From positions 186,001-250,000 of the forward strand of contig NZ_WOFO01000005.1 in NCBI RefSeq assembly GCF_010993705.1: 64,000 nt of DNA. Reading direction: 5' to 3'. Of the stretch, positions 22,918-30,549 are shown one piece after another. The notes beneath the pieces were generated by a model that worked only from the letters and a program-made list of their open reading frames with translations, searched no databases and was not told the DNA's origin. The position numbers and the translations under genes were made by a program. This DNA comes from Cyclobacterium sp. SYSU L10401. GTDB lineage: Bacteria > Bacteroidota > Bacteroidia > Cytophagales > Cyclobacteriaceae. Every line of letters starts with the position of its first letter. Within the stretch, counting starts at the first letter, position 1.

Positions 22918-23766
22918 TTATTCCTTAATATCTAAAATATCCCTGATTTTATTGGCTTCCTGCATTTCCTGATTCAACCCATCCACATCCCCTTCAGCTA
23001 TCATATCTCTGAAATGTGAGAGGTGTTGGATATAACTATCCATGGCCGCCAGTACATTTTTTTTATTTTCTAAAAATATCGGTGCCCACATGGCCGGAGA
23101 GCTTTTTGCCAGTCGAACCGTAGAAGCAAAGCCACTCCCTGCCATATCAAAAATATTCTTTTCGTCACTGGTTTTGTCTAGGACGGTTTTACCCAGAACA
23201 AAGGAAGAAACATGAGAAAGGTGAGATACAAATGCCAGGTGAAGATCATGATCTCCGGGATCCATGAACCGAAGCTTCATGTTCACCGCCTCAAAGATAT
23301 CATAGGCCAGACCTTTCAAGTGTATGTTTGTTTTTTCCATTTCACAAATGATCAAAACCTTCCCATCAAATAAATTCCCCACGGCGGCCCCGGGGCCTGA
23401 ATTTTCTGTGCCTGCGATAGGGTGAACAGCCAGGTACTGATTCCGCTTCGGGTGAGCGGCCATTTGACGACACAGCTGTTCTTTGGTAGAACCAAAATCC
23501 ATGACCAGGGTGTTTGCCCCTACCTGTTCCAGTGTTTTTTCCAGCAAGTCAAAAAGGGTATCCACAGGTGTTGCCAGAATGACTACATCCGTATCCCTAT
23601 CCGGAACCTCCTGCTGTCGGGCAATTAAACCCATTTCCAGAGCCATGTCCAGGTGTTTCTGGCGATTGTCAAATCCTGTAATGTCGCAATCCGGCAATGC
23701 TTTTTTGAGGGCAAGGGCGAAAGAACCACCCAATAATCCCAATCCAATGATATGTATCTTTTTCAT
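22918..23766 (-). CDS. tyrA: Prephenate dehydrogenase
   Basis: 282 aa, monofunctional. It oxidises prephenate to 4-hydroxyphenylpyruvate with NAD(P), the tyrosine branch. The N-terminal Rossmann loop is GLGLLGGS (8-15), followed by DFGSTK and the substrate-binding HPIAGTENSGP. The C-terminal dimerisation helices follow. It lies 6 bp after the aminotransferase gene, consistent with its being a late gene of the aromatic operon controlled by the attenuator at 29.9 kb. Confidence 0.93.
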   Translation of the reverse strand: MKKIHIIGLGLLGGSFALALKKALPDCDITGFDNRQKHLDMALEMGLIARQQEVPDRDTDVVILATPVDTLFDLLEKTLEQVGANTLVMDFGSTKEQLCRQMAAHPKRNQYLAVHPIAGTENSGPGAAVGNLFDGKVLIICEMEKTNIHLKGLAYDIFEAVNMKLRFMDPGDHDLHLAFVSHLSHVSSFVLGKTVLDKTSDEKNIFDMAGSGFASTVRLAKSSPAMWAPIFLENKKNVLAAMDSYIQHLSHFRDMIAEGDVDGLNQEMQEANKIRDILDIKE

Positions 23767-23772
23767 GCTGTA

Positions 23773-24924
23773 TTATTTAGTTAGCCTGTTCAATGCTTCT
23801 TTGATCAATCCTTCGTCAACGCATAGAGAAAAACGGACATGGTCCTTTCCTTTGCTGCCAAATACCATCCCCGGAGTGATGAAGATATCCTTTTCATAGA
23901 GCAGCCGGTCTACCAGTTCCAAAGCCTGCATGCCTTCAGGTACCCTGGCCCAGACAAACAAACCTACGGCCCCTTCATCCACCTCTAGTTGCAACTGCCT
24001 GGCCATTTCCCAAACCAAGGCCCTCCGTCTGGCATAAATGGCATTCATGGAACTGATCCATGAAGCATCCAGGTGAAGGGCAGCCACAGCTCCCGCCTGA
24101 ATACCTAAAAACATCCCGGAATCCATGTTGCTCTTCACCCGCAAAACAGCCTGAAGGTAATCTTTCCTTCCGGACAACATGCCCACACGCCAGCCCGGAA
24201 TATTGAATGTCTTACTCAATGAGTTTAACTCCAGTACATGGTCCATTGACCCGGGAAGGGAAAGAAAACTCAGGGGCTCCTCATTCAAAATAAAGCTATA
24301 CGGATTATCATGAACCAATAAAATATTGTTTCTGCTGGCGAAATTTAATAGTTTGATAAAGAGTTCCCTGGAGCCTTTTGCCCCTGTTGGCATGTGGGGA
24401 TAATTGATCCACATGAGTTTTACCCTGGAAAGGTCCAGGTTTTCCAGGGCCTCCCAGTCAGGTTCCCAACCACTTCGCTCCATCAAATCAAAATACACCG
24501 GCTTTGCTTTTAAAAGTTTGGTTACTGAAGTATAGGTGGGGTATCCGGGATTGGGCACCAATACCTCATCACCCTCATCGAGAAATGCCATAGAAATGTG
24601 CATGATTCCCTCCTTTGAGCCCATCAGGGGAAGGATTTGGGTTTTCGGATCCAGGCTTACCCCATAATTTCTGGAGTAAAAGTCTGCCATGGCCTGTCTG
24701 AGTTCGGCCGTGCCCTGATAGGATTGGTATCCATGGGCATTGGGTAAGGCAGTCGTCTCATGGAGTGCCACCGTTACCCTGGGATCCGGTGGCAGGTCGG
24801 GACTACCTATCCCCATGTTGATAATGGGTTTACCAGCATTTCTGAGTTCCTGGACTTCCTGGAGTTTTTTGGAAAAGTAATATTCCTGTACTTCTTGCAA
24901 TCTTTCTGAATACCCTTTCATCAT
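23773..24924 (-). CDS. Class I/II PLP-dependent aminotransferase (probably aromatic)
   Basis: 383 aa, fold type I. The PLP lysine lies in NSLSKTFNIPGWRVG, and the family's NxPY-type pattern occurs as YPHMPTG and HDNPYSF. It resembles the LL-DAP/aspartate aminotransferase group, but its position between pheA (4-bp ATGA overlap at 24921-24924) and tyrA (6-bp gap) suggests that it aminates phenylpyruvate and/or 4-hydroxyphenylpyruvate. This assignment is inferred from context. Confidence 0.87.
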   Translation of the reverse strand: MMKGYSERLQEVQEYYFSKKLQEVQELRNAGKPIINMGIGSPDLPPDPRVTVALHETTALPNAHGYQSYQGTAELRQAMADFYSRNYGVSLDPKTQILPLMGSKEGIMHISMAFLDEGDEVLVPNPGYPTYTSVTKLLKAKPVYFDLMERSGWEPDWEALENLDLSRVKLMWINYPHMPTGAKGSRELFIKLLNFASRNNILLVHDNPYSFILNEEPLSFLSLPGSMDHVLELNSLSKTFNIPGWRVGMLSGRKDYLQAVLRVKSNMDSGMFLGIQAGAVAALHLDASWISSMNAIYARRRALVWEMARQLQLEVDEGAVGLFVWARVPEGMQALELVDRLLYEKDIFITPGMVFGSKGKDHVRFSLCVDEGLIKEALNRLTK

Positions 24925-25748
24925 TTCCTGTTTTGGTAGGTCCCAAATATTTTCACATCCCCATAGTTCGCTTCAATGGATTCAATTGCCGCATTAAATT
25001 GGCTTTCATCTGCTATCAAGGTATCAATAAAAAAAGTGTATTCCCAGGGCTTACTCATGACAGGTATAGACTGGATTTTGGTCAGGTCCAGGTCATGCGC
25101 ACTCATCACGGTAAGCAATTTGGCCAGCACACCCTTTTCATTGCGAACAGTAATTTTCAAACTGGCTTTGGTAGGCGCCTTGCGCTGTACCGGCTTTTCT
25201 TTTTGAAGAATAATAAAACGGGTGAAATTATCCTTTACGGTCTGTATGTCCCTTGCCAGAATTTCCAATCCATAAAATTCAGCGGCTTTGGTACTGGCCA
25301 CGGCAGCTAGTCCCTGAAGCTTTTGTTCTGAGATTAATTTGGCCACATAGGCAGTATCTACATCATCTACCGGAACGATGTCCGGGTGTCTGGCAAAAAA
25401 TTGCTTGCATTGCAGCAGGGCCATGGGGTGGGATCTGGCTTCCCTGATGTCTGAAAGCTGCTGGCCGGGAAGCACCATCAGGTTATGAGATATGGGCAGG
25501 TAATACTCATCCACTACAAACAAATCATGCCGGTCGATGATGTCGTAGTTCGGCAATATGGCTCCTGCAATGGAGTTTTCTATGGCCATGACCGCAAAGT
25601 CCACTGAACCAGACTCCACGCTTTTGGCCACCTCCTCAAAGGTATTGAAACCAAAAACAGCGATATCCTCTCCAAAATACTGTTGGGCCACCTGGTGATG
25701 AAAGGATCCAAGTACCCCCTGGATGGCAATTTTCAATTTTTTTTCCAA
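24921..25748 (-). CDS. pheA: Prephenate dehydratase
   Basis: 275 aa: PDT domain (about 4-180) with the catalytic NFTRF, then an ACT regulatory domain (about 195-270) with SIPV/SKPWEYTFFID in place of the usual ESRP segment, the Phe-binding site. It makes phenylpyruvate from prephenate. There is no fused chorismate mutase here, as that domain sits on the DAHP synthase. The start is TTG at 25748: an in-frame stop lies five codons upstream and no ATG is available before the conserved KIAIQGVLGS. It begins 5 bp after the DUF486 gene and overlaps the aminotransferase gene. Confidence 0.92.
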   Translation of the reverse strand: MEKKLKIAIQGVLGSFHHQVAQQYFGEDIAVFGFNTFEEVAKSVESGSVDFAVMAIENSIAGAILPNYDIIDRHDLFVVDEYYLPISHNLMVLPGQQLSDIREARSHPMALLQCKQFFARHPDIVPVDDVDTAYVAKLISEQKLQGLAAVASTKAAEFYGLEILARDIQTVKDNFTRFIILQKEKPVQRKAPTKASLKITVRNEKGVLAKLLTVMSAHDLDLTKIQSIPVMSKPWEYTFFIDTLIADESQFNAAIESIEANYGDVKIFGTYQNRK

Positions 25749-25753
25749 TAGCT

Positions 25754-26122
25754 TTACTTTTTAAATATACAATAAACTGAGACCACCAAAAAGAAGAAGC
25801 CTACCAAATGATTCCATCGAAAGCTTTCATTCTTAAAAAACAGGAAAGTAAATATCATGAACACCACCAAAGTGATCACTTCCTGCAATACTTTCAGCTC
25901 CACCAAACTAAACGGACCTCCATTTCCTTTAAAGCCTATCCTGTTTGCCGGAACCTGAAAGAAATATTCAAAGAGTGCAATGCCCCAGCTGATCAACACA
26001 ACAGCTATCAGCCCCAGATTTTCAAACCACTTTAGCTCCTTAAACTTCAAGTGTCCGTACCAGGCAAGGGTCATAAAGGCATTGGATAGCAGCAACAAGA
26101 CAATGGTGTACAAGCCCTTCAT
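25754..26122 (-). CDS. DUF486 / DMT-like membrane protein
   Basis: 122 aa with four hydrophobic helices (about 4-20, 36-54, 74-98, 103-120) and the PANRIGFKGNGGPFS loop of the DUF486 family, an EmaA/EamA-like small multidrug-type relative. The function is unknown. It sits inside the aromatic operon, 18 bp after aroA and 5 bp before pheA, so it is almost certainly co-transcribed. A role in moving an aromatic compound or shikimate intermediate is possible but only inferred from position. Confidence 0.8.
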   Translation of the reverse strand: MKGLYTIVLLLLSNAFMTLAWYGHLKFKELKWFENLGLIAVVLISWGIALFEYFFQVPANRIGFKGNGGPFSLVELKVLQEVITLVVFMIFTFLFFKNESFRWNHLVGFFFLVVSVYCIFKK

Positions 26123-26140
26123 CGTTTTTACAATAGGGCA

Positions 26141-27367
26141 TCAATTTTTAAACACAGGATTTATTCCCAGCAATTCGCAATGCTTCCAGAAACTGGGATA
26201 GGATTTATTCACCACTTCAGGGTCTAAAATGCGCATCTTTGTTTTGGTGATCAGGGGCATAAATGCCATCGCCATGCGGTGATCATCATAGGTCTCTACC
26301 TCCACTATTTCCGGGATTTGCGCTGCAGGAGTAAGGGTAAAGACTCCGGTTCGACCTTCCCTTAGATGGGCCCCGATCTTTGCCAGTTCTCTTTGCAGTG
26401 CATCGATGCGATCGGTCTCTTTGATCCGTAAACTTTCCAGCCCGGTAAAATCTGCTTGCTGACCGGTCAGGGCACAGGTAACGGCTACGGTCTGGGCCAG
26501 GTCGGGGCAATGGGTAAAATCAAATTCAGACAATCCAAGGACCGGTTGTTTTTGCAGCAGGACGCCTCCTTCCTGGAAAGTACTTTTTACGCCCAGGCGA
26601 TCCATAATGGATACGATCCGGGCATCGCCTTGCAGGCTATCCGCTTTCAATCCTTCCAAAAACAACTCGCCAGCTCCTGCGCATGCCAGTAAACTGAACC
26701 AGTAACTGGCTCCTGACCAATCGCTTTCCACCGAGAATGAGGTCGCCTGGTATTCCTGTGGAGCAACCCTGATTTGGTTCCCTTCAAATTGATAATTTAC
26801 GCCAAAGGTTTTCATCAATTCCAGCGTCATGGTGATGTAGGTGCGTGAGCCCACCTTACCGGTAAGGTTCAGGATTAGCCCTTGGGGAAGCAGGGGCGCA
26901 TTCATCAACAGGGCTGAAATGTACTGGCTGCTGACATCTCCCCGAATACTGATTTCACGGGATTTTTGGCCCCCAAAACCTCGGGTCTGAAGAGGAGGAT
27001 AACCTTCCTCTTTCAGGTAGTCAATCTCTGCTCCAATCTCCCTCAGTGCATCCACCAAAATTCCTATGGGCCGCTCGCACATTCTGGGGGTGCCGGTCAG
27101 GGTTTTGATTTTGTTGTTCAGGGCGGCAAAAGCCGTTAAAAACCTCATGGTGGTACCTGCGTCTAGCACATCATAGACTTCAGGATCATCTTTCAGCAAG
27201 CGAATCATGGTCTGGGTATCCCGGGCTTCGGCCAGGTTGGACAAGAGATTTTTTCCTTTGGTGAGGGCATCAATGATCAGTACCCTGTTGCTTTCGCTTT
27301 TTGAAGAAGGCAAGGGTATACGAACCTGACCAAGGGATTCCAGTAAGGGTAAATCAATGCTTTTCAT
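26141..27367 (-). CDS. aroA: 3-phosphoshikimate 1-carboxyvinyltransferase (EPSP synthase)
   Basis: 408 aa. It joins shikimate-3-phosphate and phosphoenolpyruvate to make EPSP. Features: N-terminal PSSKSESNR (shikimate-3-P-binding Lys/Ser), DAGTTMRF, LTGTPRMCERP, and a C-terminal LRIKETDRI and DDHRMAMA. The aligned segments resemble Bacteroidota AroA rather than the E. coli type. Gap to aroB 56 bp, to the DUF486 gene 18 bp. Confidence 0.95.
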   Translation of the reverse strand: MKSIDLPLLESLGQVRIPLPSSKSESNRVLIIDALTKGKNLLSNLAEARDTQTMIRLLKDDPEVYDVLDAGTTMRFLTAFAALNNKIKTLTGTPRMCERPIGILVDALREIGAEIDYLKEEGYPPLQTRGFGGQKSREISIRGDVSSQYISALLMNAPLLPQGLILNLTGKVGSRTYITMTLELMKTFGVNYQFEGNQIRVAPQEYQATSFSVESDWSGASYWFSLLACAGAGELFLEGLKADSLQGDARIVSIMDRLGVKSTFQEGGVLLQKQPVLGLSEFDFTHCPDLAQTVAVTCALTGQQADFTGLESLRIKETDRIDALQRELAKIGAHLREGRTGVFTLTPAAQIPEIVEVETYDDHRMAMAFMPLITKTKMRILDPEVVNKSYPSFWKHCELLGINPVFKN

Positions 27368-27423: not shown

Positions 27424-28461
27424 TCATTCCTCCAGGTTATTATAATATTCCATGGCCTCCACGACCGATTGCTTGTCCACCACAATATTAAAGTCACATT
27501 CCCCTATTTTCTTCAGCAAGGAGAAATTAAGTTTTTCACCATCATTTTTCTTGTCCTGAAAACAAAGCTTGATAATGGCATCAAAATCTTTGTCGGAAAT
27601 AGAAATTTTACCAAAAACTGCCAACACCTTTTGTTGTATGGTGTCCAGCTGAGCTTGGGGAAGTCGCAAAAACTTGTGGGAAAGATAGGCTTCCGTAACC
27701 ATACCAATGGCGATGGCTTCACCATGGAGAAGGCGGTAGGGGCCATTCAGGTAATGAGACTCAATGGCATGTCCGATCGTGTGTCCAAAATTAAGAATTT
27801 TCCTTAATCCGTTTTCTTTGGGATCCTTGTCTACCACTTCCCGCTTGATGCCCACCGATACCTCAATGATGTCTTTCCAGGGCTGGTTTTGCCAGTTCTC
27901 CGTTTTCAGGCTATTGAAGTAATTCTCATTACGTATCAGGCCATGTTTAATCACTTCGGCATAGCCTGAACGCAATTCTGCCTCAGGCAGGGTTTTTAAA
28001 AACTCATCACAGATCAATACCCCTTCCGGTTGATTAAAAACGCCAATGTGGTTTTTGAAGCCATTGAAATCTATACCTAATTTTCCTCCAACACTGGCAT
28101 CCACCTGGGACAGCAGGGTGGTTGGAATATTGATAAAGCGGATTCCCCGTTTATAGGTACTGGCGCAAAACCCACCCATGTCTCCGGCCACCCCTCCTCC
28201 GATATTGATAATCAAGGTTTTGCGGTCAAAATTATTTTCCGTCATCCATTGCCAGATTCCCTGGCAAGTGTCCAGGTTTTTATGGATTTCTCCCGCATCA
28301 AAAGCATGCAGGCAATGTTCAGGCAGGCCTTCCGAAACAAGCGGGTAGCAATGCTTGATGGTATGACTGTCCATAATAATCCCTAAGCGGGAATATTTTT
28401 TATTATGGAGATAGCGTGGCAGATCCTCTGCTATATGGGAAGAAAATATAATTGTTTCCAA
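27424..28461 (-). CDS. aroB: 3-dehydroquinate synthase
   Basis: 345 aa. It cyclises DAHP to 3-dehydroquinate using NAD and a divalent metal. Motifs: GGGVAGDMGGFCAS (NAD loop), GHTIGHAIE and LLHGEAIAIGM (metal His/Glu). The start is a TTG at 28461: the next in-frame ATG is at codon 30, inside the conserved N-terminus, and an upstream stop bounds the frame. It follows the DAHP synthase/chorismate mutase gene after a 173-bp gap carrying a long inverted repeat. Confidence 0.93.
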   Translation of the reverse strand: METIIFSSHIAEDLPRYLHNKKYSRLGIIMDSHTIKHCYPLVSEGLPEHCLHAFDAGEIHKNLDTCQGIWQWMTENNFDRKTLIINIGGGVAGDMGGFCASTYKRGIRFINIPTTLLSQVDASVGGKLGIDFNGFKNHIGVFNQPEGVLICDEFLKTLPEAELRSGYAEVIKHGLIRNENYFNSLKTENWQNQPWKDIIEVSVGIKREVVDKDPKENGLRKILNFGHTIGHAIESHYLNGPYRLLHGEAIAIGMVTEAYLSHKFLRLPQAQLDTIQQKVLAVFGKISISDKDFDAIIKLCFQDKKNDGEKLNFSLLKKIGECDFNIVVDKQSVVEAMEYYNNLEE

Positions 28462-28634: not shown

Positions 28635-29741
28635 TCAAACTGATTTATTAGAAGGTTGCTCCTCTCGCAACTTTTTCTCCTGGCGCTTTACGGACTCTTC
28701 ATGAATGCAATAAAGCAATTCCTTCATGAATTTTTCACTCAGGTTTTTGGACATTCCTTTTTGAGTCCTGGAATCCATCACCTGCTTCCAGCGATCAGCC
28801 TGAAAAACGGTCAGGTTATGTTCTCTTTTGTGAGCGCCAATTTGATCGATAATGGAAAAGCGTTCCGCCAATAGATCCATTAACTGGTCATCCAAATGGT
28901 CTACCGCATTTCTAAGGTCTTGCAGTTTTTCTGATGGGTGCTCGGTTTGGAGGGTATGCTTGAAATCAATCTGATCGAGAATTTCTCTCAGCTGCCTGGG
29001 AGTTACCTGCTGCTTGGCATCACTCCACGCATTGTCGGGGTCATGATGGGTTTCAATCATCAGCCCGTCCAAACCAAAATTAATGGCTCGCTGGGCGGTT
29101 TCCAATAATCCCGTCCTGTTACCTACAATGTGACTGGGGTCATTGATTACCTGCATGCCTTTCCAAATCCTTTTCAGGTGGATGGGCATGGACCAGTTGG
29201 GCTTGTTGCGGAATTTTTTATCGTACGCATCACTGAATCCCCGGTGAATCGCAGCCAACTTATTAACCCCTACTGCCTGAAGTCTTTCCAGGGCTCCTCT
29301 CCACAGTTCCAAATCGGGATTCATAGGGTTTTTCACCATCACAGGTATGTCTACACCTTTCAGGGCTTCAGCAATCTCCTGAACGGCAAAGGGATTTACC
29401 GTAGTCCGGGCACCTATCCAAAGGATGTCTACCCCATGCTTCAGAGCCGATTCCACGTGGGCGGTGTTTCCCACCTCGGTTGTAATCGGAATATTCAGGT
29501 GATGTCGGACGATTTCCATCCATTTCAACCCATCTTCCCCGATTCCTTCGAAACTCCCGGGTCTGGTTCTTGGCTTCCAAATCCCTGCCCTGAATACATC
29601 AGGGACCACATTTGCCGCTATCATGTCCTGACAAACCTTTTCGATTTGTTCGGGTGTTTCGGCGCTACAGGGCCCTGCAATGATCAGGTGCTCCTTTTCC
29701 AGGCCCAGGCCCCAGTCTTTCGTTTGTAAGTGATTTTCCAT
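28635..29741 (-). CDS. Bifunctional DAHP synthase / chorismate mutase
   Basis: 368 aa. Residues about 1-265 are the DAHP synthase domain of the AroF/KDO8P-synthase-like type (AGPCSAE, FRAGIWKPRTRPGSFEG, WIGARTTVNP, IAAIHRGF). It condenses PEP and erythrose-4-phosphate, the first step of the shikimate pathway. Residues about 275-355 are an AroQ-type all-helical chorismate mutase (LRNAVDHLDDQLMDLLAER), which turns chorismate into prephenate. Fusing the two lets prephenate or chorismate act on the first step. It is the first structural gene of the operon, directly behind the leader attenuator, with the ATG about 20 nt past the terminator. Confidence 0.94.
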   Translation of the reverse strand: MENHLQTKDWGLGLEKEHLIIAGPCSAETPEQIEKVCQDMIAANVVPDVFRAGIWKPRTRPGSFEGIGEDGLKWMEIVRHHLNIPITTEVGNTAHVESALKHGVDILWIGARTTVNPFAVQEIAEALKGVDIPVMVKNPMNPDLELWRGALERLQAVGVNKLAAIHRGFSDAYDKKFRNKPNWSMPIHLKRIWKGMQVINDPSHIVGNRTGLLETAQRAINFGLDGLMIETHHDPDNAWSDAKQQVTPRQLREILDQIDFKHTLQTEHPSEKLQDLRNAVDHLDDQLMDLLAERFSIIDQIGAHKREHNLTVFQADRWKQVMDSRTQKGMSKNLSEKFMKELLYCIHEESVKRQEKKLREEQPSNKSV

Positions 29742-29761
29742 TGTTTGATTTACGGTTAAAT

Positions 29762-29790
29762 AAAAAAGCCCGACTCTCTCGAATCGGGCT
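29762..29790 (-). terminator. Attenuator terminator hairpin
   Basis: Read on the minus strand, AGCCCGA (29790-29784) pairs with TCGGGCT (29773-29767) round a 10-nt loop, and six T follow (29767-29762). It ends 20 nt before the ATG of the DAHP synthase gene and 22 nt after the leader ORF, the normal place for an attenuator. The 5' arm also pairs with the leader RNA at 29847-29836. Confidence 0.9.
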
Positions 29791-29811
29791 CCTGTGTTTG
29801 TTTATCTTTAA

Positions 29812-29907
29812 TTATTTTTTTTCAAGACAATACGCAGCTCCGATTCGGCCGTGGGGACGAAAATAAAAGTAAAAGAAGCTAAAATATGTAGCTGCGAATT
29901 TTTTCAT
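29812..29907 (-). CDS. Leader peptide of the aromatic operon (Phe/Tyr-rich, 31 aa)
   Basis: ATG at 29907, TAA at 29814-29812, 31 codons. It begins MKKFAAT and codons 8-16 read YFSFFYFYF; in total there are six Phe and four Tyr, against no Trp. It ends with CLEKK. The stop lies 22 nt before the terminator stem. Codon content and position are those of the E. coli pheA or pheS leader, but here both Phe and Tyr are sensed. It is too short for routine gene callers. The start ATG is only four bases after the -7 box, so the transcript is probably leaderless. Confidence 0.87.
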   Translation of the reverse strand: MKKFAATYFSFFYFYFRPHGRIGAAYCLEKK

Positions 29908-29911
29908 GCGT

Positions 29912-29943
29912 CAAATGTAATCTTTCCCCATTTAAAAATCAAA
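29912..29943 (-). promoter_or_regulatory. Promoter of the aromatic operon
   Basis: On the minus strand TTTG (29943-29940), 20 nt spacer, TACATTTG (29919-29912). This matches the Bacteroidota housekeeping consensus TTTG-N19-21-TAnnTTTG exactly. Only the four bases ACGC separate the -7 box from the leader ATG, so transcription should start at or within a base or two of that ATG. Confidence 0.85.
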
Positions 29944-30070
29944 CAGTTATTCATTTTTTTTGTCAGCATCATGTCAAAACCTCCAGTGAAAACAACCTAT
30001 CAGCCAGGTCCTAGCCACGAAAAACACCAGTCTGTCAGGATCCAATACAAACAACTTTGATCCGATTCCC

Positions 30071-30096
30071 TTGTATTAGACCGTTGTATTAGACGG
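30071..30096. repeat. Two tandem copies of a 13-nt unit
   Basis: ttgtattagaccg (30071-30083) is followed at once by ttgtattagacgg (30084-30096), 12 of 13 identical, just past the 3' end of the DUF3052-like gene. No function is apparent. Confidence 0.55.
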
Positions 30097-30105
30097 CTGG
30101 AAATG

Positions 30106-30549
30106 TCAGGGCTTCTTTTTTTCTGATAGCAAGCCAAATTTCCGTTTCAGTCTGGGGATGTTTTCGACTTTTCGGAAACGCAAGGCAGACCAGTCCTGAT
30201 CTATGGCTACCTGCCTGACCGGTTCCATCCCCCATTCGCCGAGCAGGTCCCATCCGCTATCCCTGTTGTAATCTGTAGTATATTTCTTTGAACTAACCTT
30301 GGGATAGGCGATCCAAAATACGGCATCGGACCCTAGTTTGGGAAGTAAGGGAAGGACTTCTGCTTCCATTTCGGCTTTGGTTCTTCCAAAAACCAAAGCA
30401 AATTCAATTTCTCCCGGTTCATCCAGGTGCTCGCTGATCAGGGTATGCCTGTCCATGGCCTCCATGTGCGGCTTAAATGTATCAGGAGCAGCCAGTATTA
30501 CTGCCTTTTCTTGAGATTTAAAGTTTAATTTTTTAAAAAGGGCATCCAT
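30106..30549 (-). CDS. DUF3052-like conserved protein
   Basis: 147 aa from the ATG at 30549. The central ALVFGRTKAEMEAE and DAVFWIAYPKVSSK segments and the C-terminal DQDWSALRFR resemble a small family annotated as DUF3052/YdeI-like in many bacteria, function unknown. No signal peptide or membrane helix. Divergent from proline dehydrogenase. Confidence 0.65.
   Translation of the reverse strand: MDALFKKLNFKSQEKAVILAAPDTFKPHMEAMDRHTLISEHLDEPGEIEFALVFGRTKAEMEAEVLPLLPKLGSDAVFWIAYPKVSSKKYTTDYNRDSGWDLLGEWGMEPVRQVAIDQDWSALRFRKVENIPRLKRKFGLLSEKKKP

Follow-up and report, generated by a model that had tools for sequence, protein, structure and literature searches.

The first structural gene of an aromatic amino acid cluster in Cyclobacterium sp. 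SYSU L10401 is very probably controlled by a ribosome-mediated transcription attenuator which, judging from the sequence, would sense charged tRNA-Phe and tRNA-Tyr and turn genes on when these are in shortage. The element lies on the minus strand of the window, by which we mean the whole 64,000-nt stretch of DNA analysed, upstream of a gene encoding a fusion of type I DAHP synthase and type II chorismate mutase (DAHPS/CM; 28635..29741, minus strand; Pfam PF00793 and PF01817; best NCBIfam model PRK12595, below its cut-off). A preliminary description of this DNA had proposed a Phe/Tyr leader-peptide attenuator at this site, and the promoter, the 31-codon ORF, the 1:2 and 2:3 pairings and the terminator were found exactly where it had placed them, to the base. 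Conservation of the ORF, of its Phe/Tyr codon run and of the pairings in relatives argues for that proposal. The window genome has a single copy of the leader. Each of 12 genus genomes gave one strong match to the broad model described below, the next best anywhere having an E value of 0.0136. Another model match, at 4646-4498 of the window (E 0.009), was rejected, as it is a terminator between convergent genes with no leader.

The promoter had been described as a consensus promoter. A promoter is present, but it is of the Bacteroidota type, and a scan of 29500-30200 for E. coli-type promoters, a candidate we rejected, found no match. The -33-like TTTG (29943-29940, minus strand) is followed by a 20-nt spacer and the -7 box TACATTTG (29919-29912), after which only four bases, ACGC, precede the leader ATG at 29907. 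The box conforms to TAnnTTT in all 79 loci compared (the window and 78 relatives, excluding the two loci L090 and L098 discussed below), the next base being G in 63 and A in 16; its distance from the leader ATG is 4 nt (75 loci) or 5 nt (four loci). In 78 of the 79 there is also a TTG, ending 19-20 nt ahead of the box. According to the available text of a study of Flavobacterium psychrophilum, the consensus -7 box of that species lies at -12 to -5 (PMC9723704). Since the box here is 4-5 nt from the ATG, +1 is predicted at about 29907, and the leader mRNA should begin at or beside the AUG, that is, nearly leaderless. Leaderless mRNAs make up a few per cent in this phylum: the parts of the literature available to us give them as 5.5% in F. 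psychrophilum (PMC9723704) and 5′ UTRs shorter than 10 nt as about 3.7% in Bacteroides (PMC7366714). There is also a described case, in the text available, of a transcript that begins at the leader ORF's own ATG, namely trpL/rnTrpL of S. meliloti (PMC7298713). That precedent, together with the predicted 5′ AUG and the fixed promoter spacing, would fit an additional function in trans, with the terminated leader acting as a small leaderless mRNA or RNA like S. meliloti rnTrpL/peTrpL. Pairing in cis, however, accounts for the conservation observed, and we give such a second role only a slight chance.

The leader ORF (29812..29907, minus strand) is predicted to be leaderless and comprises 31 codons and a TAA stop codon (29814-29812). 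It encodes MKKFAATYFSFFYFYFRPHGRIGAAYCLEKK, for which no match was found in NCBIfam or Pfam. As had been read previously, codons 8-16 (29860..29886) spell YFSFFYFYF, and the whole ORF contains six Phe and four Tyr codons. The closest named relatives of the downstream gene are Cyclobacterium species, and by pattern the ORF was kept in 78 of 80 loci of its named relatives. In one of the other two (L090, Nitritalea), the leader frame is changed and the U-rich DNA is retained, while in the second (L098, an MAG labelled Spirosoma) the match does not start where the gene does, and ORF presence was not scored. This Nitritalea-type leader, seen in L090 and L154, keeps the U-rich DNA of the run in a shifted frame, with some Phe/Tyr codons becoming Leu. 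Alignments were made with 44 nonredundant leaders out of 79 (identity under 93%); the named loci are not independent of the family genome set used below, with which they share some members. Eight of the nine codons of the run encode F or Y in 41-44 of the 44 leaders, and the ninth encodes Thr, Ser or Ile. Compared with the DAHPS/CM gene at these loci (mean majority 0.69, ten columns), synonymous positions of Phe/Tyr codons are also more uniform in the run (0.92, eight columns), and TTT occupies codons 9 and 14 in 44/44 leaders. Part of this extra synonymous constraint, and only part, is explained by TTT being the commoner Phe codon in the window's cluster (64 of 86); the rest is unexplained.

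Downstream of the run, the peptide RIGA[AV]YC is conserved in the close group, which would be expected of an arrest peptide, in which the nascent aromatic peptide within the ribosome senses free Phe or Tyr, as in TnaC, rather than charged tRNA. However, the codons of this segment coincide with region 2 of the RNA and are fixed as nucleotides (ATC in 44/44 leaders, CGA in 42 and GGA in 42). In more distant relatives the layout persists although the peptide differs, the run varies according to the downstream gene, and the position of the stop codon drifts among relatives. Conservation of peptide residues beyond the RNA pairing, the trait looked for as TnaC-like, was not found in the aligned leaders or in the 83 gene-assigned matches described below. 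An arrest peptide is thus very unlikely, and we retain the charged-tRNA attenuator.

The leader ends in an intrinsic terminator (29793-29764, minus strand) with a hairpin of 13 pairs, a loop of 4 and a T-run, its 5′ arm being region 3 and its 3′ arm region 4. It lies approximately 22 nt ahead of the DAHPS/CM ATG at 29741, close to the 20 nt given for the rho-independent terminator in the preliminary description. By itself the terminator is unremarkable (one found, 1.0 expected from shuffles of the region). A simple pattern retrieved a terminator between the ORF and the first gene in 74 of 78 loci, and across the 44 leaders 99.3% of the cells of 3:4 are paired and two pairs show changes in both partners. 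Among 200 shuffled versions of the 166-nt leader, 2 equalled or bettered its fold (z -2.64).

Two further pairings link the ORF to the terminator. Region 1, AATTCGCAGCT (29900-29890), pairs with AGCTGCGTATT (29839-29829) through 10 pairs with one mismatch, and CGAATCGGAGCT (29847-29836) pairs with AGCCCGATTCG (29790-29780) in the 5′ arm of the terminator through 11 pairs with one bulged A, in both cases as claimed before; region 2 therefore spans 29847-29829, with 29847-29836 facing region 3 and 29839-29829 facing region 1. The 2:3 pairing is near-invariant, with 99.4% of cells paired in the 44 leaders, no pair changed on both sides and no covariation. The segment CGAATCGG is nearly invariant in the 44 leaders, its sole variable base being the first (C in 42/44). 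In contrast, 1:2 covaries across leaders: in the window's register 74.2% of cells are paired, against at most 59.8% when the register is slid by 1-3 columns, and 13 cells are changed on both sides. Region 1 lies one codon earlier in several genera. When regions were swapped among the 44 leaders, 0 of 2000 permutations matched the native 1:2 and 45 of 2000 matched 2:3, a slight effect. The same comparison in 49 diverse leaders (of 51, after dropping L090 and L184, a mis-framed model match) gave -10.07 kcal/mol for native and -6.96 for swapped 1:2 (0/5000 permutations), and -10.69 against -9.44 kcal/mol for 2:3 (1/5000), in both cases uncorrected for relatedness. Shuffles of single leaders were less uniform. 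For 2:3, 23 of 51 leaders had at most 5 of 100 shuffles as good, the weakest being Tyr leaders of phhA; a like test of 1:2 was passed by 23 of 49, and the pairing is weak in some members. Comparison of the codon run and of the 1:2, 2:3 and 3:4 pairings in relatives had been put forward as a check, and its outcome favours the proposal: the ORF is kept in 78 of 80 loci, 3:4 and 2:3 are paired across the 44 leaders, and 1:2 and 2:3 surpass swapped partners in the 49.

The preliminary description had further called the pairings exclusive, in exactly the trp/phe-type layout. Both 1:2 and 2:3 exist, but their overlap is small. In the window, the part of region 2 used by 1:2 (29839-29829) adjoins the 8-bp core of 2:3 (29847-29840), and the best duplexes overlap by 4 nt; over the 49 leaders this overlap ranges from 0 to 8 nt and is zero in 15. 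The layout also departs from that description in the position of the control codons, which sit 3′ of region 1 and ahead of region 2, inside the 1:2 loop. Shared bases therefore account for only part of the exclusion, and the remainder would be topological; a pseudoknot of 1:2 and 2:3 may also form.

The spacing of run and pairings suggests how a ribosome could act on them. From the last codon of the run to region 2 there are four codons, gap-free, in 44/44 aligned leaders. We modelled the folding of the RNA 3′ of a ribosome stationed at successive codons, cutting the transcript off behind region 3 and allowing no pairing across the ribosome. In this model, 2:3 forms when the A site is at codon 18 or earlier and is absent at codon 20 or later, in all 44 leaders; changing the footprint to 11 or 16 nt shifts this limit by roughly a codon. 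Allowing pairing across a ribosome that stands at the stop codon restores 2:3 in most sequences. At equilibrium without a ribosome, the model favours 2:3 in 41 of the 44, so the off state needs a translating ribosome or kinetics.

We propose the following sequence of events. Transcription would start at or beside the leader AUG, and a ribosome would load on the 5′ end. Under shortage of Phe or Tyr, it would stall within codons 8-16 and open hairpin 1:2, whose loop contains the run, leaving region 2, four codons past the last Phe of the run, free for the nascent region 3. Formation of 2:3 would block the terminator, and DAHPS/CM would be transcribed by read-through. With both amino acids ample, the ribosome would continue, cover region 2 and halt at the stop codon between regions 2 and 3; 1:2 may re-form behind it, and 3:4 would form and end transcription. 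With the control codons in a loop and a start predicted to be nearly leaderless, how far the ribosome reaches can be tested directly.

How far control extends along the cluster bears on the earlier claim that the leader controls a whole operon. The next gene is aroB (27424..28461, minus strand; TIGR01357 over cut-off), followed, all on the minus strand within 22918..27367, by aroA, a gene for a DMT_6 protein, pheA, an aminotransferase gene and tyrA, with aroA and tyrA over their NCBIfam cut-offs and pheA and the aminotransferase below. The DMT_6 (DUF486) gene, at 25754-26122, encodes a small membrane protein and lies between aroA and pheA within the aromatic cluster. Linkage favours the claim, aroB being the first cluster gene found 3′ of DAHPS/CM in 80/80 loci and at most 334 nt away in 79. 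On the other hand, the gap between DAHPS/CM and aroB in the window is 173 nt long and contains a perfect 18-bp inverted repeat (28631-28614 and 28507-28490, minus strand). Similar repeat arms of 10-19 bp were present in 8/8 Cyclobacterium loci and in 0/32 other loci, among the 40 of the 80 loci inspected. A possible -7 box of aroB, TACCTTTA, was seen by eye at 28484-28477, and it too weighs against control of the whole operon by the leader. Leader control of genes beyond DAHPS/CM is nonetheless likely.

The idea that the leader is confined to the aromatic operon did not hold, since model matches in other genomes precede phhA, tyrS, pheA and further genes. Training used Phe/Tyr and Tyr leaders, which favours matches of those kinds; it included neither hisH nor thrA leaders, although some of the training Tyr leaders contain His. 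With model R1, 81 of the 196 genomes in the GTDB family had a match; the strong matches in this tally were not inspected singly, and 3 weak ones were left out of the inspection. The broader model R2 matched 63 of 291 genomes in the order, 63 of 345 in the class and 44 of 296 in the phylum, in overlapping sets; weak matches were inspected in the class (22) and the phylum (12), and these tallies include uninspected matches of uncertain worth. Among 98 matches inspected, a recognised gene came next in 83. The remaining 15 were taken as chance, since they lack both a recognised neighbouring gene and any leader of the aromatic, His or Thr/Ile kinds. Another 12 matches from the phylum search were followed by pheA in 10 cases, by a DAHPS-like gene in one and by a prephenate dehydrogenase gene (NF006307 over cut-off) in L295, whose genome is outside the class.

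The 83 leaders precede genes of the DAHPS/CM class (26), pheA (22), phhA (20), hisH (5), aminotransferase (4), thrA (4) and tyrS (2). These classes were assigned with reference proteins, NCBIfam cut-offs being exceeded for hisH, tyrS, phhA, the aspartokinase domain of thrA and the DAHP synthase of L131; the DAHPS/CM class includes this AroF-type DAHP synthase (L131), a separate chorismate mutase (L217) and the close-group members L154 and L161. The run varies with the gene. It contains both F and Y in 26/26 DAHPS/CM-class and 22/22 pheA leaders, whereas phhA runs contain Tyr in 19 of 20 (the exception being L241, a phhA match without a Tyr run) and Phe also in 7 of 20. All five hisH leaders have at least 3 His codons, and all four thrA leaders at least 5 Thr and Ile codons combined. 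The mean number of Phe codons per run is 0.41 before phhA and tyrS (22 leaders) and 3.69 before DAHPS/CM and pheA (48), a difference reached in 0 of 10000 permutations, uncorrected for relatedness. The His-run leaders (L225, L228, L234, L237 and L239), each with a terminator before hisH, are in other families of the order. The Thr/Ile-run leaders (L253, L258, L261 and L274) stand before aspartokinase/homoserine dehydrogenase-like genes, and such runs resemble enteric thrL in composition. The genome of L131 has two leaders approximately 1.5 kb apart: one, with Tyr and Phe, is followed by a short frame with a PhhA-like start and then by the DAHP synthase gene, and the other, with Tyr only, precedes phhA.

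A -7 box within 10 nt of the ATG was found in 46 of the 83 leaders, against 4.1 expected from shuffles. It is frequent before genes of the DAHPS/CM class (19/26), phhA (17/20), hisH (5/5) and aminotransferase (4/4) and rare before pheA (1/22), thrA (0/4) and tyrS (0/2). In the 22 pheA leaders, the distance from box to ATG is 16-33 nt in 13 and 7 nt in one, and no box was found in 8.

A leader that binds a protein or ligand, with an incidental ORF, would also be expected to have a strong conserved hairpin and a nearly invariant segment such as CGAATCGG. Yet the ORF is kept in nearly all named loci, the make-up of the codon run follows the gene behind it in seven gene classes and an Rfam scan of the window, T-box included, found no family at the gathering score; we regard this reading as extremely improbable. 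Bacteroid-trp (RF01692), a trp leader, was considered and rejected: in 12 genomes of the genus no match was above cut-off, two weak matches occurred in one genome, and there was none in the window.

Phenylalanine hydroxylase genes (phhA) were located by tblastn, and upstream regions were inspected in 30 of the 83 genomes with a match. In 14 of the 30, a Tyr- or Tyr- and His-rich leader and a terminator, identified by eye, lie directly upstream. Prephenate dehydrogenase (PF02153 over cut-off) was missing from 13 of 31 leader-bearing genomes, of which 3 have a sub-cut-off PF02153 match and one genome is 69% complete, and from none of 17 genomes without a leader directly upstream (Fisher p 0.001, relatedness uncorrected). 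Within the 30 family phhA genes, which were not chosen for their leader, the figures are 4/14 and 0/16 (p 0.037, relatedness uncorrected). One of the 17, G065, has phhA behind tyrA and aminotransferase genes that do have a Tyr leader: on its contig C140 (L160 and L183), the leader precedes the aminotransferase gene, and tyrA and phhA come later on that strand, in what looks like an operon dedicated to Tyr. In the window genome (L192, G000:C15:504000-507600), a second DAHP synthase gene lies directly behind trpA with phhA next, and the hydroxylase may be under trp control there. There is no aromatic leader between these genes, so that a Phe/Tyr leader for the second DAHP synthase was rejected; no leader was found in the five of the twelve genus loci of this paralogue that were scored.

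Tyr leaders before phhA agree with genetic evidence from Echinicola vietnamensis that phenylalanine hydroxylase helps make tyrosine, as given in the available part of that study (PMC7311316). Such leaders hint at the purpose of the enzyme, a Tyr leader fitting a tyrosine-making role. On balance, we lean towards a Bacteroidota attenuator family, often leaderless in this order, whose members share one plan (region 1, a codon run inside the hairpin loop, two adjoining parts of region 2 and a terminator) while the run has been recoded to suit the gene controlled, as Phe/Tyr, Tyr, His or Thr/Ile. The Tyr leader would then mark phhA as a biosynthetic enzyme induced by tyrosine starvation, and some species may make tyrosine only that way.

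Ribosome-mediated attenuation is classical, as in the leader-peptide attenuators of enteric trp, pheA and pheST. Some attenuators in Bacteroidetes were reportedly predicted by Vitreschak et al. in 2004. A description of this Cyclobacterium leader was not found in the literature searched, which leaves out most subscription journals. In F. psychrophilum, of the same phylum, structured elements have been reported in the 5′ regions of pheA and hisG, along with strong indications that amino-acid operons are attenuated through leader peptides; the available text names no DAHPS/CM leader and gives no leader sequence (PMC9723704). In our searches, leaders of pheA in the class match model R2. Bacteroid-trp RNA is described, in the part available, as a cis-regulatory RNA of Bacteroidetes (PMC2864571). 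Of the candidates closer in content, uORFC-13-1 of Acholeplasma aroF has Phe codons and a terminator before a DAHP synthase gene and differs from the window in lineage and in the ribosome binding site described for it in the text available (PMC8632094). Another partly available study shows F/Y uORFs with shikimate genes (PMC6429828). The trpL leader of S. meliloti shares the start at the leader ATG and differs in its amino acid, Trp, and in phylum.

The principle of this leader is therefore known, its layout is unusual (predicted to be near-leaderless, with codons in a loop and partly adjacent halves of region 2), and its Bacteroidota version is barely described. It provides a detailed, testable attenuator for a phylum in which the literature searched only mentions such leaders. 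With the enteric trp, pheA and pheST leaders it would share a leader ORF with control codons, an antiterminator set against a terminator and a ribosome whose position decides between them. It differs from them in mixing Phe and Tyr codons, in having its -7 box just 4 nt from the AUG, in carrying the control codons within the 1:2 loop, and in the two halves of region 2, which are partly adjacent instead of shared.
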